Positions 3,620-9,649 of a stretch of DNA of 20,914 bases are shown piece by piece. Below the pieces are notes generated by a model. It was not told where the DNA came from. It saw only the letters and a list, made by a program, of their open reading frames with translations, and made no database searches. The position numbers were made by a program, and so were the translations under genes. How positions within the stretch are numbered: position 1 is the first letter of the stretch; the number at the start of each line of letters is the position of its first letter. Source of the DNA: a virus; the IMG/VR virus record IMGVR_UViG_3300034378_000218, positions 1 through 20,914 of that record; one strand, given 5' to 3'.

Positions 3620-3997
3620 ATGTATCGAATTTGCAAGAGAAGCCCAAATTTGTCTGTCAAAAAGAAAGGCAAAGGCTATCATGAAGTGCCGATGGTCAAG
3701 TTCGGAAAAGAAGGCAAGTGTTTCTTCAATGTGGCCGCGCGAAAGAAGTTTTTAAAGAGAAATAAATATGCTGAGATTCTGGTGGATGAGATACGTGGAC
3801 GCATCGCGTTTAACATATTGGAGCATCCGAGCCTCAATTCGTTCAAATTATCGCCAAACAACAAGAAGAGCAAAAGCTCTTCTGAGAGCCTGCAGTCCAC
3901 TAGTCTCTCCAAGACGAAGGTCTACAAGCAGGTTATGGATAGGAAATTGCCAGTGGAGTATAATCACAAGAGGAAGCTACTTGAGGTAAAATTGTAA
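3620..3997 (+). CDS. Hypothetical basic protein
   Basis: AAAGGAG precedes a GTG-ATG pair; ATG 3620 is preferred. The roughly 125-residue protein is very basic, with Lys/Arg clusters (KKKGKG, ARKKFLKRNK), a serine-rich polar linker near residues 82-98 (SKSSSESLQSTSLSK) and a basic tail. Such charge suggests nucleic-acid binding, but no fold is recognised. It is followed within 20 bases by the promoter of the ribbon-helix-helix gene. Confidence 0.65.
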   Translation: MYRICKRSPNLSVKKKGKGYHEVPMVKFGKEGKCFFNVAARKKFLKRNKYAEILVDEIRGRIAFNILEHPSLNSFKLSPNNKKSKSSSESLQSTSLSKTKVYKQVMDRKLPVEYNHKRKLLEVKL

Positions 3998-4012
3998 AAT
4001 TTGTATTTTTAT

Positions 4013-4041
4013 TTGACAAATATGTCATTTGCTGATACAAT
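4013..4041 (+). promoter_or_regulatory. Sigma70-type promoter of the RHH gene
   Basis: TTGACA (4013-4018), 17 bases, TACAAT (4036-4041). The transcript should start near 4048, only about six bases before the ATG at 4054, so the regulator may be translated from a nearly leaderless mRNA. The promoter matches 20 of 29 positions of the one at 206-234. Confidence 0.8.
4014..4027. promoter_or_regulatory. Candidate operator TGACA-N4-TGTCA
   Basis: A perfect inverted repeat, TGACA-AATA-TGTCA, overlaps the -35 box. Ribbon-helix-helix repressors commonly bind short inverted repeats over their own promoter, and the gene for one lies 27 bases downstream. The shorter form GACA-N4-TGTC recurs in the same register at 208-219. 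Binding is inferred. Confidence 0.5.
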
Positions 4042-4053
4042 CCTGGATAAGAG

Positions 4054-4206
4054 ATGAAAAACAAAAAAGATCTACATATTTTGGTGGATGAGGAGCTCTA
4101 CGATCGGGTTAAGAGAATTGCGTCGAGGGACGACCGGAGCTTGACGCAGACCGTCCGGCGTGCTATAATAGAATACCTAAGGAAAAAGGGCGCGATAGAG
4201 AGCTGA
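4054..4206 (+). CDS. Ribbon-helix-helix DNA-binding protein (50 aa)
   Basis: The product fits the Arc/CopG/MetJ fold: a short strand (LHILVDEELYDRV) followed by two helices ending in SLTQTVRRAIIEYLRKKG. Dimers of this fold insert a two-stranded sheet into the major groove. No ribosome binding site is evident and the start lies about six bases from the predicted transcript start. It is probably a transcription repressor controlling itself through 4014-4027. A second promoter is embedded in its coding sequence. Confidence 0.8.
   Translation: MKNKKDLHILVDEELYDRVKRIASRDDRSLTQTVRRAIIEYLRKKGAIES
4141..4169 (+). promoter_or_regulatory. Extended -10 promoter inside the RHH gene
   Basis: TTGACG (4141-4146), 17 bases, TATAAT (4164-4169), with TG one base before the -10 box (extended -10). 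It lies within the last third of the regulator gene and would start transcription near 4176, making the RNA-rich leader upstream of Ro60 independent of the regulator's own promoter. Confidence 0.7.
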
Positions 4207-4228
4207 TTGTTCTTTGTTAATAAATTTT

Positions 4229-4316
4229 GGGCAGTGAGCAATGGGTTACTTCGACAGTTAAAATCTATATAGTGATAAAGACTATATAGTTGTTTAATGT
4301 GTCCACGGGGCACGTT
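4229..4316 (+). ncRNA. Structured RNA module A (Y RNA candidate)
   Basis: The module begins GGGCAGTGAG and contains two strong hairpins: CTATATAGT/ACTATATAG (4265-4289) and AATGTGTCC/GGGCACGTT (4296-4316, nine pairs including G-U). Module B at 4531 has the same start and the second hairpin at the equivalent place with different bases but preserved pairing. Bacterial Ro60 genes typically sit beside genes for Y RNAs, some with tRNA-like modules. That link here is by position and structure only. Exact ends are unknown. Confidence 0.5.
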
Positions 4317-4456
4317 ATGTATCAATATGCGTACCAAGCACATACGATACAAGAGTGAAAACTCAAAGCGACGGAAACGCTTTAAAATTCCACCCAGCGC
4401 GGTTTTCTCTCAGAATATATATAGAATTTATAACGCATCGCATCCTTGAATATCCT

Positions 4457-4529
4457 GAGATTGGGGCTACAATCTCTCAGTAACCAATCTGTAGAAGCCC
4501 TATCCCTTTAGGGATAAGGGAGTAGTCAC
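4457..4529 (+). ncRNA. TnpB omega-RNA-like scaffold, copy 1 (73 bp)
   Basis: These 73 bases are identical to 18702-18774. They form GAGATTG/CAATCTC with loop GGGCTA; that loop can pair with AGCCC further on as a pseudoknot. A second hairpin is CCCTATCCC-TTTA-GGGATAAGGG, and the element ends GTAGTCAC. From memory, this layout (GTAGAAGCCC, TTTA-loop hairpin, TCAC end) matches the right end of IS200/IS605-type elements, which is also the 3' scaffold of TnpB omega RNA. The guide would begin at 4530. No tnpB is nearby. Confidence 0.65.
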
Positions 4530-4530
4530 T

Positions 4531-4615
4531 CGGGCAGTGAGGATATGGGATACTTCGGAGATGCTGGATTCCCTATTCCAGTTAATGCGCCATGGCGCAT
4601 TATGTTCCCTGTCCG
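4531..4615 (+). ncRNA. Structured RNA module B, cloverleaf-like (Y RNA candidate)
   Basis: CGGGCAG (4531-4537) pairs with CTGTCCG (4609-4615) as a closing 7-bp stem. Inside lie CTGGA/TCCAG (4564-4581) and AATGCGC-CATG-GCGCATT (4584-4601), plus a first part (GTGAGGATATGGGATAC) shared with module A and containing AG...GGG like a D loop. The outline resembles a tRNA-like fold, as in YrlA-type Y RNAs, but no T-loop signature is seen. It begins right after scaffold copy 1, so its first bases would also be the guide. Confidence 0.5.
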
Positions 4616-4662
4616 GCTTACTCCCAATTATATCGATTCCCCCTAGTTATAGGAGGCGAACC

Positions 4663-5400
4663 ATGCCGAGATTCAATGTAAAATCCAGCCAAGAAAGCAA
4701 GACCATCAATCTGGCTGACGGCGAGGCCTTCCAGGAGTCGCCCAAGCTAGAATTCATATCCATCCTTTTAACCTCTTTTATCAAAGATAAATACTATCGC
4801 TGTGCGGACGACACAATCAAGAGGCTCATCGAGCTGACGGAATCCATTCCGGACAAGAAGTTCATCGCCAAGACGGCAATCTATGCGCGGAATGAATTCG
4901 GGATGAGATCCGTGTCCCATCTGGTGGCAGGCGAGGTAGCCAGGCTGGTCAAGGGCCAGCAATGGACCAAGCGGTTCTTCGACAAGGTGATACACCGCGT
5001 GGACGACATCACTGAGACATTGGCGTATTATCTAGACAGATACAGGAAGCCCATACCCAACGCGATGAAGAAAGGCTTGGCGCGCGCGTTTGACAAATTC
5101 GACGCATATCAGCTGGCGAAGTACAGGGGAGAGGGTGCCGCTGTGTCTTTGGTCGACGCGATGAATCTGGTCCATCCGATTCCGACGGAAAAGAATGAGG
5201 CTGCGTTGAGGATGCTGGTTGCTGGAACATTGAAGTCAGAAGGCACCTGGGAGGCGAGGCTCACCAAGGCAGGCCAGGAGGCACAGGTTCAGGATAAAAA
5301 ATTAGACAAGAAAAAAACATGGGAGGAAATAATTGATATGTGGATAATTACTTTACCAGAGGAAGATAGAGAACTGGAGACAGAATTTAAAAGTGCCTAA
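4663..5400 (+). CDS. rsr: Ro60 N-terminal half (TROVE domain)
   Basis: The 245-residue product matches the TROVE HEAT-repeat ring of Ro60 (KKFIAKTAIYARNEFGMRSV, WTKRFFDKVIHRVDD). Ro60 binds Y RNAs and the ends of misfolded RNAs. AGGAGG precedes ATG 4663. Homology should continue past KTWEEIID, but after about codon 226 (base 5340) 19 unrelated residues lead to TAA. The remaining part of the protein restarts at 6324. From about 5290 the coding becomes AT-rich. The fragment could pair with the second half. Confidence 0.85.
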   Translation: MPRFNVKSSQESKTINLADGEAFQESPKLEFISILLTSFIKDKYYRCADDTIKRLIELTESIPDKKFIAKTAIYARNEFGMRSVSHLVAGEVARLVKGQQWTKRFFDKVIHRVDDITETLAYYLDRYRKPIPNAMKKGLARAFDKFDAYQLAKYRGEGAAVSLVDAMNLVHPIPTEKNEAALRMLVAGTLKSEGTWEARLTKAGQEAQVQDKKLDKKKTWEEIIDMWIITLPEEDRELETEFKSA

Positions 5401-6175
5401 ATGTATGATTTGCAAAGAAAATTTTAGACAGATTACTGGTACGCATTTACAGAGAAAACATGAAATTAGAACTGTAGCTGAATATAAAAAAATATATCCA
5501 TATGCCTTAATTATAGACGGAGATATTTCTAATAGATTAAGAAATAATTTTTTAAAAACAAAAAATAAATATCCTGATAAAATTGGATTTAAGAAAGGAG
5601 AAGGTCAGAGGAAAGAATTTATTTCTTGGAATAAAGGATTAACTAAGGAAGTTGATAGAAGAATTTATAAACAATCGATAAATCAGAGAGGGCCATTTAC
5701 AGAAGAACATCGGCGAAAAATATCTGAGACAAGAACTAAACGTCAAAAATATGAACATTGTATTAAGTGTGGTGTTAAGAAAGGAAAAACAACTAGAAAG
5801 TTATGTATTTTTTGTGCTCGAAAAAAATTAATAACGAAAAAAGATTATATCAATCCAATGAAAGGCAGAGAGATATCAGATGAACATAAAAGGAAATTAT
5901 GGGGTGGATGGAAAACAAGATATACTAAACCTGAGTTAAAGGTTTTAAATAGTTATTCTAACCTTATTTATACAGGAGATGGAAAATTATGGATATCTTT
6001 TAGAGATGGAAGTTGTAAAAATCCAGATATAGTTTACTTGCATCCTAAATATAAAATAGCAATAGAGATATTTGGTGATTATTGGCACAGAAATGATGAT
6101 CCAGAGGAAACTAAAGAGAAATATAGTAAAGTAGGATGGCGTTGTTTAATTTTATGGGAACATCAGGTAAATTAA
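5393..6175 (+). CDS. Vsr-like (EDxHD) homing endonuclease
   Basis: Domain order in the 260 residues: a C2H2 finger (C4, C7, H18, H23), two NUMOD3-like DNA-binding segments (about 98-113 and 152-170), a four-cysteine knuckle between them (about 122-140), and a C-terminal nuclease with E near 180 (KPE), NPDIVY, then IEIFGDYWH. The last part matches the Vsr-like PD-(D/E)xK homing nucleases such as I-Bth0305I. GTG 5393 overlaps the Ro60-N stop. The gene is strongly AT-rich. An in-frame TAA at 6173 cuts off about 45 residues (see next entry). Confidence 0.8.
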   Translation: MPKCMICKENFRQITGTHLQRKHEIRTVAEYKKIYPYALIIDGDISNRLRNNFLKTKNKYPDKIGFKKGEGQRKEFISWNKGLTKEVDRRIYKQSINQRGPFTEEHRRKISETRTKRQKYEHCIKCGVKKGKTTRKLCIFCARKKLITKKDYINPMKGREISDEHKRKLWGGWKTRYTKPELKVLNSYSNLIYTGDGKLWISFRDGSCKNPDIVYLHPKYKIAIEIFGDYWHRNDDPEETKEKYSKVGWRCLILWEHQVN

Positions 6176-6313
6176 TGGTATAGAGAGAAGATTTTATGTG
6201 AAATTATAAATCAATTTATAAATTATGATGAATATTTTCCACATAGAGCAAAGAATGAGAAAGAATACGGTTCAATGTTTATTTATAATTTAAATAAATT
6301 TTTAATGCTTTAA
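6176..6313 (+). pseudogene. Severed C-terminal tail of the homing endonuclease
   Basis: Directly after the TAA at 6173 the same frame stays open for 45 codons (beginning WYREKILCEIINQFI) to a TAA at 6311, eleven bases before the Ro60-C start. The composition is that of the endonuclease and the helix-rich start fits the expected end of a Vsr-like domain. A single C-to-T or G-to-T change (CAA or GAA to TAA) would explain it. Readthrough is possible but unsupported. Confidence 0.6.
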
Positions 6314-6323
6314 AGGAGATATT

Positions 6324-7085
6324 ATGATTGTTAAAAATTATTTTGCAATTTTAAGGAATCTCCGTAATATTTTAGAAGCTGAAGTAGATGATTATCATTT
6401 AAATAAAGTTATTAAGGCGCTATCTTTTGAACCAGCTATTAGAAAATCGCTAGTATTGCCTTTTAGATTCACAACCGCATTGGACGAGATAGAGAAGACA
6501 AATCTAGATGGAGCGAAGGATGTGCTGGTTGCGCTGAACAATGCAGTGGACATCTCGTTGAAGAACGTGCCGGTGTTCGAGGGCAAGACGCTGGTGGTTT
6601 TGGACCAGTCGGGCTCGATGCATGGCAGGCCCGCGCAGATAGGCAGCCTGTTCGCGGCAGTTTTGGTCAAGTCCAACAACGCCGATTTGATGACATTCAG
6701 CAACGACGCCAGATACAAGACAATAAATCCGATGGACAGTATTATCACTATCGCCAGCAGCCTTCGGAGAGCCACTAATGGCACGAACTTCCACGCGATA
6801 TTCAAGACAGCAAACAAGGTATATCAAAGGATAATCATTCTTTCTGATATGCAGGGTTGGATAGGGTTCATGACGCCCGCCGCGGAATTTGCTGAGTACA
6901 AAAGAAAATACAATGCGGAGCCTTTTGTCTATTCGTTTGATCTAGCTGGCTATGGAACGTTGCAGCTGCCACAGCGAAATGTGTATTGTCTGGCAGGGTT
7001 TAGCGACAAGGTCTTCGATGTCATAAAGTTTCTGGAGACGGACAAAGAGGCGTTAATGCATGAAATTGAGAAAATCGAATTATAA
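6324..7085 (+). CDS. rsr: Ro60 C-terminal half (end of TROVE plus vWA domain)
   Basis: The 253-residue product begins with the TROVE segment NYFAILRNLRNILEAE, which in intact Ro60 proteins follows the part ending the first half. A von Willebrand A domain follows with a complete MIDAS: DQSGS (D94, S96, S98), T154 and D175 in ILSDMQ. An AAAGGAG site six bases before ATG 6324 allows independent translation. Both halves together give about 470 native residues, near normal Ro60 size. Coding is AT-rich to about 6475 and GC-richer after. Confidence 0.85.
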   Translation: MIVKNYFAILRNLRNILEAEVDDYHLNKVIKALSFEPAIRKSLVLPFRFTTALDEIEKTNLDGAKDVLVALNNAVDISLKNVPVFEGKTLVVLDQSGSMHGRPAQIGSLFAAVLVKSNNADLMTFSNDARYKTINPMDSIITIASSLRRATNGTNFHAIFKTANKVYQRIIILSDMQGWIGFMTPAAEFAEYKRKYNAEPFVYSFDLAGYGTLQLPQRNVYCLAGFSDKVFDVIKFLETDKEALMHEIEKIEL

Positions 7086-8587: not shown

Positions 8588-8997
8588 TAATTGGTGATAT
8601 CCTGTTGTATTTCAATAAGTTGACTAAGCTTGGCGCCATATACAAAAGGAATTGCATAGACCCTAGAAAGGTTATTGGATTGCCAGTGACTGAAGGTGGG
8701 GATTATCTAGGCAAGATAATAGGTCGAGTAGAGGATTGTATAATTGACAAGGATTGTTTGAAGGTTGTGGTTTATATTGAGGATAAGGACTTTTACGCCG
8801 ACTTAAAAAACAAAGTTCTTCGACCGGTATTTCAAATAAATGAGCAGGAAATTCAGAGGGATGGCACGGTCTTAATCAAGGATGTCACAGTGATTCAGGT
8901 GAATGCCATTTCTGAGAAATTTGATATTTACAATAAGAAAGAGGTGGAAGATGACCAAGAAGGCAAAGAGAAAAACAAGAAAAAAGATATTGATTAA
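8584..8997 (+). CDS. Hypothetical protein, GTG start
   Basis: GTG 8584 overlaps the TGA of the Trm112-like gene (GTGA). The 137-residue protein looks rich in beta strands (KIIGRVEDCIID, KVVVYIED, VTVIQVNAI) and ends in a highly charged tail (EDDQEGKEKNKKKD). It resembles head-decoration or capsid-stability proteins only in general appearance. The 3' end overlaps the vWA gene by 47 bases. Confidence 0.65.
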   Translation: MIIGDILLYFNKLTKLGAIYKRNCIDPRKVIGLPVTEGGDYLGKIIGRVEDCIIDKDCLKVVVYIEDKDFYADLKNKVLRPVFQINEQEIQRDGTVLIKDVTVIQVNAISEKFDIYNKKEVEDDQEGKEKNKKKDID

Positions 8998-9649
8998 TTT
9001 TATCCTGGATGAGACTGGCTCGATGCTTAACATTCAAGATAAGACAATAAGCGGCTTCAACGAGTATGTCGCCTCGCTGTGCAAGAAGAACGAGGATGAT
9101 ATCCGGATGACGCTGACGAAATTCAACAGTACAAAGGTAGATATTGCATATGCCAATAGGCCGATTAAAGAGGTCAAGAAGTTATCACACGCGACCTATC
9201 GACCTGATGCACTCACACCTTTGTACGATGCAATAGCCAAGACGATAAAGAGAATCGAGAAGGATGTGACTAAGAGAACAAATGTACTGACGGTAATCAT
9301 GACCGACGGATATGAGAATGACTCCAGGGAATACAAGCGAGAGGATATATTCAAGATGATAAAGGACAAAGAGCAGGTCGGCTGGTCGTTTGTCTATCTT
9401 GGCGCAAACCAGGATTCCTGGGCAGCAGGGCAAGCCATGGGATTAAAAAAAGGCAATGTTGCAGATTATAACCAGCGGAGAACAAAGCGTACATTTAGGG
9501 TATTGGCTGGTGCGACAATGGGATACGCAATGAGCGTATCTAGTGGCACATCGGCGTCGACATCGTCAGCTTCGATCAATAGTTTTTTTAGTAAAAAAGA
9601 TAAAGAGGAATTAAAAAAAGGAGGCGATCAAAATGTCAATGCCAAGTAA
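8951..9649 (+). CDS. Von Willebrand A domain protein
   Basis: From ATG 8951 (site GAGGTGG) the product has 232 residues. The MIDAS motif is complete: DETGS (D20-S24), T89 in the ALTPLYDA segment, and D119 in VIMTDG. After the domain a Ser/Thr/Ala-rich low-complexity stretch (about 200-215) leads to a Lys/Glu tail. It is a cytoplasmic metal-dependent binding protein, unrelated in detail to the Ro60 vWA. Metal-ion adhesion usually means assembly of a larger complex; the likely partner is the next gene, which overlaps by 17 bases. Confidence 0.85.
   Translation: MTKKAKRKTRKKILINFILDETGSMLNIQDKTISGFNEYVASLCKKNEDDIRMTLTKFNSTKVDIAYANRPIKEVKKLSHATYRPDALTPLYDAIAKTIKRIEKDVTKRTNVLTVIMTDGYENDSREYKREDIFKMIKDKEQVGWSFVYLGANQDSWAAGQAMGLKKGNVADYNQRRTKRTFRVLAGATMGYAMSVSSGTSASTSSASINSFFSKKDKEELKKGGDQNVNAK

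Follow-up and report, generated by a model that had tools for sequence, protein, structure and literature searches.

What do the 456 bases encode that lie, free of any likely gene, before the Ro60 gene of a virus? The DNA in question is IMG/VR virus record IMGVR_UViG_3300034378_000218, positions 1 to 20,914 (the window, a stretch of 20,914 bases; the features listed for it below are on the + strand), and the gap runs from the stop codon of a small regulator gene (4206) to the Ro60 start codon, ATG 4663. A previous reading made from the bases alone (the sequence-only reading) had placed two paralogous structured RNAs here and proposed them as candidate Y RNAs, the RNAs bound by the ring-shaped RNA-binding protein Ro60 of bacteria and animals. 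We conclude that these modules, A and B, are very probably tandem phage Y RNAs, which would be transcribed in one unit with Ro60 and dock on the phage Ro60 protein.

Two repeated modules upstream of Ro60

4224-4416, + strand: candidate Y RNA module A, 193 nt, located automatically from its 5′ motif
4532-4625, + strand: candidate Y RNA module B, 94 nt, sequence-aligned with 25 relatives in alignment A3 (see below)

Both modules contain GGGCAGTGAG (at 4229 and 4532) followed by TACTTCG (at 4247 and 4551). This gapped repeat of 10 + 7 bases, with spacers equal to within 1, was obtained in 2 of 3000 dinucleotide shuffles of positions 4207-4662; any 10-mer repeat at all was obtained in 259 of the 3000. 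The modules also follow a common plan, consisting of an outer helix with one bulged pyrimidine, the sequence AGUGAG, an inner helix, and an apical strand starting with UACUUCG. The outer helix of A, ATTTTGGG/CTCAGAAT, has 8 pairs and a bulged C4232, and is followed by AGTGAG, the inner helix GGGT (4243-4246)/ACCC (4392-4395), the core TACTTCG (4247-4253) and an insert of about 130 nt with several hairpins. The minimum free energy (MFE) of A was -56.3 kcal/mol, with a z score of -4.69 (0 of 200 shuffles as good), and the free MFE fold keeps the outer helix together with the bulged C4232. Module B has an outer GGG/CCC, a bulged C4535, AGTGAG (4536-4541)/CTTACT (4617-4622) and an inner helix extending to TTCCC-TGTC; its core lies at 4551-4557 and its apex is formed by two hairpins. 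Folding of 4532-4625 gave an MFE of -35.8 kcal/mol and a z score of -2.57 (2 of 200 shuffles as good).

The repeat and the fold scores bear out the claim of two paralogous structured RNAs, and the MFE folds contain the hairpins described for A (AATGTGTCC/GGGCACGTT) and for B (AATGCGC/GCGCATT). The elements assigned to 4229-4615, with B starting at 4531, were likewise found, and their limits are corrected here to those listed above. The limits of B were set by comparison with relatives, the automatic 5′-motif search having put its 3′ strand wrongly. An open frame from 4495 runs through module B. Modules A and B as coding sequence were ruled out by the conserved protein start at ATG 4663 behind AGGAGG (which begins at 4651), a start kept in a relative; they do not belong to the Ro60 protein, whereas translation within a longer protein was what the sequence-only reading had named as fatal to its proposal.

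Association of the core motif with Ro60 genes

Viral contigs were scanned blindly with the pattern GTAGTGAN{3,9}GAGWTACTTCG. The scan returned 47 stretches, and in 26 of the 47 a Ro60 gene, recognized with a Ro60 profile, lay 28-872 nt downstream on the same strand. The 26 include repeats: loci L022, L024 and L030 duplicate earlier ones, and L028, L029 and L038 are alike. In L018, the contig coordinates put one further copy some 0.45 kb ahead of Ro60. Nine of the remaining 21 stretches are in records with a TROVE match somewhere; 12 of the 21 records searched, many of them fragments, have no detectable Ro60.

Relatives were also collected through the protein. The N-terminal half of Ro60 as query found 7 viral loci, to which tblastn added the 634-kb phage LR745206; the C-terminal half found nothing in viral contigs, and a DNA similarity search of annotated phages gave a single weak match. 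The core was present upstream of Ro60 in 8 of 8 relatives (the 7 loci and LR745206), mostly twice, in a listing that omits the duplicates L002, L022, L024 and L030. One copy was present in L003 before the contig end, and TACATCG stands in place of TACTTCG in the first copy of both L004 and L008. The core lay downstream of Ro60 in crAss001 (L070), Mvi-JY20 (L068) and L027. In 15 annotated phage or virus loci, taken from 100 phage records with a Ro60 match, the 9-mer G[AT]TACTTC[AG] occurred 23 times on the gene strand and once on the opposite strand, in 10 loci.

The number and size of the copies varied. In the huge-phage group a second Y RNA copy, 214-285 nt in length, includes a long domain without tRNA-like appearance; such copies are found in L001 (3917-4201) and also in L007, L008, L019, L021, L041, L047-L051 and L054-L056. 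At the gathering score, Rfam gave no match in L001 and L004-L008. Bacillus phage G (L073) carries about five core copies (303, 1780, 2087, 2211 and 2316) before its Ro60 gene gp540, with a T-arm in the first only. In the archaeal virus Halogranum tailed virus 1 (L064) a compact copy of the core, its pairing seen by eye only, lies at 2383 just before Ro60. Four or five model matches occurred in one stretch in L017, L026 and L013; Ro60 is elsewhere in the record in L017 and L026, and none was detected in the record of L013.

The bacterial sample comprised the best 80 of 153 relatives' Ro60 loci. In their 205 kb of flanking DNA, G[AT]TACTTC[AG] was present in 88 gene-strand copies, distributed over 48 loci, and in 0 copies on the opposite strand; 32 of the 80 loci had no copy of the 9-mer. 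A T-arm followed the core in 39 of the 80, and the bacterial copies displayed have a capped acceptor and a D-arm after the T-arm, which is the permuted arm order of YrlA.

Covariation of the two helices

Alignment A3 contained 26 compact copies aligned by sequence with MAFFT. Only copies of <=90 nt were taken, near-duplicates were removed, 10 automatic picks that seemed false or had poor limits were taken out manually, and L003 and module B of the window were added, with limits set by hand; the alignment retains two rows (L012:2238 and L032:197) that are visibly out of register. RNAalifold, unprompted, returned an outer helix of 4 pairs and an inner helix of 8 pairs, with 12 of 12 pairs changed on both sides. 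A fuller structure of 18 pairs had 81.6% of cells paired on A3, against 64.8% in shuffled alignments, and a covariation score of 0.497 against 0.202; none of 500 shuffles reached either value, and slid controls gave scores of 0.08-0.20. In an alignment-free swap test, 3′ regions were exchanged among 40 copies (82 before near-duplicate removal; B not included). Copies scored 12.65 with their own 3′ region and 7.63 with those of others, a result reached in 0 of 2000 permutations. Covariation across related phages, proposed as a check by the sequence-only reading, which took its absence as a refutation, was therefore found for both helices, in an alignment-dependent manner.

Modules A and B thus fold, are conserved, covary and keep a constant neighbourhood. 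They have the broad traits of Y RNAs, namely a position beside the Ro60 gene, a bulged end helix (alignment-dependent) and a core in common with bacterial Ro60-linked RNAs. The Y RNA reading is supported because the blind scan leads to Ro60, because the core is enriched, with a strand control, beside bacterial Ro60 genes, and because the helices covary in related phages.

Other results point the other way. Neither A nor B matched a Y RNA family (YrlA RF02553, YrlB RF02565, vertebrate Y RNA) when compared with all 4227 Rfam families; as a positive control, the Rfam models recovered yrlB and yrlA in two enterobacterial-looking records (L158/L159). With the window left out, MAFFT displaced the 3′ arms, and the resulting alignment (covariance model R1) had no base pairs. 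Model R2, built from A3, was used instead, and the score of B is consequently not independent, B being in the training set; on A, R2 gave the second-best match in the window, at 15.8 bits and E 0.16, with the 3′ arm misplaced. Ten MAFFT runs recovered both helices in 5 cases, the outer helix alone in 1 and neither in 4. In the swap test 9 of 40 copies beat all swaps, two scored 0, and A was equalled by 3 of 39 swaps. The gene-strand 9-mer was missing from 5 of the 15 annotated viral loci (L061, one of these, has a model match), and in L063 it was present only 1.8 kb downstream. Enterobacterial YrlA reads AUCUACACC by eye, not UACUUCG; since the core is not visible in the enterobacterial yrlB/yrlA records, it is common but not universal. 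Lastly, when 13 more upstream bases were included, B favoured a rival fold (-42.0 versus -35.8 kcal/mol).

Alternative explanations

4519-4625, + strand: rival fold of B, in which the upstream GGGAGTA region pairs with TACTCCC (7-bp stem, cloverleaf), -42.0 kcal/mol

The two folds of B bear on two different explanations. The 7-bp stem had been described as closing B into a cloverleaf-like outline; the stem exists, and has the lower computed energy over 4519-4625, but it is a competing fold that was not found in relatives. The stem and the conserved helix compete for one 3′ strand, so that the two folds are mutually exclusive. As a comparably strong G+C-containing competitor was seen in B alone among 26 compact modules tested, we regard the stem as a rival fold of this locus that may act as a switch. 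That B is a tRNA-like or cloverleaf RNA closed by GGGAGTA/TACTCCC is highly improbable: no T-arm or D-arm was seen by eye in A or B, ARAGORN found no tRNA there (its sole tRNA in the window being a tRNA-Tyr at 2365), the closing strand is not conserved, and the covarying helix would be broken. This identity was rejected on the ARAGORN result and the lack of a comparable competitor stem in the 25 relatives.

A pair of exclusive, switch-like folds would also suit a cis-acting leader, in which A and B are elements of the 5′ untranslated region and not free RNAs, and Ro60 binds its own message to control translation. The spacing is compatible with this, B ending at 4625, 25 nt before AGGAGG and 37 nt before Ro60, and the L003 module ending about 46 nt 5′ of Ro60. 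However, where the core lies downstream of Ro60, as in crAss001, Mvi-JY20 and L027, it cannot be a leader, and the bacterial copies share the domain layout of free YrlA RNAs. We consider a leader unlikely. Least probable of all is that A and B are some other structured RNA (a repeat, packaging or replication element) that is near Ro60 by chance. The 12 of 21 searched records, many of them fragments, with the core and no detectable Ro60 would be expected from such an element, but 26 of 47 blind matches lead to Ro60 and the bacterial strand bias is 88 to 0. Tandem Y RNAs remain our preferred identification of A and B.

Relation to known Y RNAs

Modules A and B resemble YrlA (RF02553) in lying beside Ro60, in having a stem formed by the 5′ and 3′ ends, and in the core, which many bacteria have as G[AU]UACUUCG before the tRNA-like domain. 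They differ in lacking the permuted tRNA-like domain (T-arm, capped acceptor and D-arm), and the comparison with YrlA covariance models suggested by the sequence-only reading gave no match for either module. YrlB (RF02565) and the Deinococcus Y RNA (the latter by papers only) are likewise encoded beside Ro60; the YrlB covariance model did not match A or B. Vertebrate Y RNAs (RF00019; hY1, with GGUAGUGAG, and others) have at the Ro60 site a helix with a single bulged C, to which the bulged pyrimidine of A and B is similar, whereas A and B have no Rfam match to them and the order of elements differs; the vertebrate site has in addition a 3-nt bulge on the opposite side.

The sequence-only reading held that phage-encoded Y RNA-Ro60 pairs are little known. 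Such pairs are already discussed in print (PMC12282133, PMC7765460), and A and B are therefore a variant rather than a new class. There are reports of Y RNAs from mycobacteriophages (cited in PMC12282133), a Y RNA is suspected near a Ro60-like gene in Listeria phage CKA15 (PMC12282133), a phage RNA near a Ro60-like gene is also attributed, through citations, to Chen 2014, and jumbo phages encode TROVE proteins (PMC7824862, PMC7765460). The mycobacteriophage and CKA15 cases, like ours, have a phage-encoded RNA near a Ro60-like gene. Those RNAs are tRNA mimics or abundant transcripts that have not been classified, whereas here two tRNA-less modules accompany a split Ro60. In the Y RNA, Ro60 and phage literature searched, most subscription papers being outside it, Y RNAs that lack a tRNA-like part and stand in tandem ahead of a phage Ro60 were not described. 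The combined sequence and structure signature can reveal Ro60-partner RNAs that Rfam misses, whether in phages or in many bacteria, and possibly those of an archaeal virus. It is common for a phage to have several Y RNAs that differ in their effector domains, and the function of phage Ro60 particles thereby becomes testable.

In Listeria phage P100 (L077) the core was absent by regular-expression search, and the Ro60-like protein matches DUF2828/DUF7788, not TROVE. Three tandem hairpin-like units with ACAGCAA[TA]TACTA (23090-23440, - strand) precede the DUF2828/DUF7788 gene and are a possible Y RNA parallel. A ROOL RNA match is present at 24073-24624 (- strand; 86 bits, E 1e-16, below the gathering score of 99.1). 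ROOL, and not a Y RNA, may be among the abundant non-coding transcripts reported for the related phage CKA15.

Proposed docking on Ro60

The ends of A and B are predicted to fold into a bulged helix topped by the UACUUCG strand, which would be the docking site for the phage Ro60 ring. The part past the core would be an exchangeable effector domain, of several hairpins in A and two in B, where YrlA has its tRNA mimic. If the particle works as known Ro60 particles do, the bound RNA would gate the Ro60 channel and may tether Ro60 to other RNAs or enzymes, and the phage ribonucleoprotein might handle structured or damaged RNA during infection. In vertebrates Ro60 binds a helix of conserved sequence in which one C is bulged (PMC4726728), and bacterial Ro60 is tethered to PNPase through Y RNA (PMC7790460, PMC8394870), with the D, T and acceptor arms of YrlA lying past a basal stem that holds Ro60 (PMC8394870). 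From this bulged-C site and the PNPase tethering, Ro60 most probably binds the common core, the variable part being the probable effector domain. As the effector domain of A and B is not tRNA-like, YrlA-style tethering of PNPase cannot be assumed. A broader proposal, which we put forward tentatively and with more doubt than belief, is that the bulged helix with UACUUCR is a portable Ro60-docking module. Its tandem arrays in phages and bacteria, with varied effector domains (tRNA mimic, bare hairpin, or multi-hairpin of 130-250 nt), would load one ring with interchangeable RNAs, the ring being assembled here from two polypeptides after a homing-endonuclease split.

The split Ro60 gene and its neighbourhood

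4054 (start) to 4206 (stop), + strand: small gene for an Arc/RHH-like regulator
4141-4169, + strand: sigma-70-like promoter TTGACG-17-TATAAT with extended -10 (11 of 12 consensus matches; consensus match only)
4663-5400, + strand: N-terminal part of Ro60 (TROVE), 245 aa; PF05731, 2e-9; 59% identity to L003; PDB 9l5y residues 18-228
5393-6175, + strand: homing-endonuclease-like open reading frame; phrog_314 homing endonuclease, 1.5e-6; Vsr, 0.0056, below cut-off
6324-7085, + strand: C-terminal part of Ro60 (end of TROVE and vWA), 253 aa, with its own AGGAGA and ATG; 48% identity to L003; PDB 9l5y residues 246-490
7407, + strand: MT-A70 methylase
8903-9649, + strand: second, separate vWA-domain protein (phrog_7371, unknown function), about 1.8 kb past Ro60

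Both Ro60 parts align to one solved TROVE protein, PDB 9l5y, over residues 18-228 and 246-490. Judged by sequence, the gene is split by the homing-endonuclease-like open reading frame, and the insert, in the region 5341-6326, has ATG at each end. A group I or II intron at this position was ruled out, there being no intron family match in Rfam. The G+C content falls to 19-36% at the split, and the A+T-rich zone, about 5300-6450, reaches into the Ro60 flanks, perhaps through co-conversion. In phage Aeh1 a homing endonuclease splits nrdA into two working polypeptides (PMC2988022).

Upstream, the promoter-like TTGACG-17-TATAAT ends 55 nt 5′ of module A, within the end of the RHH gene, and 5 promoter-like sites were found in 3990-4700, against 1.4 expected.
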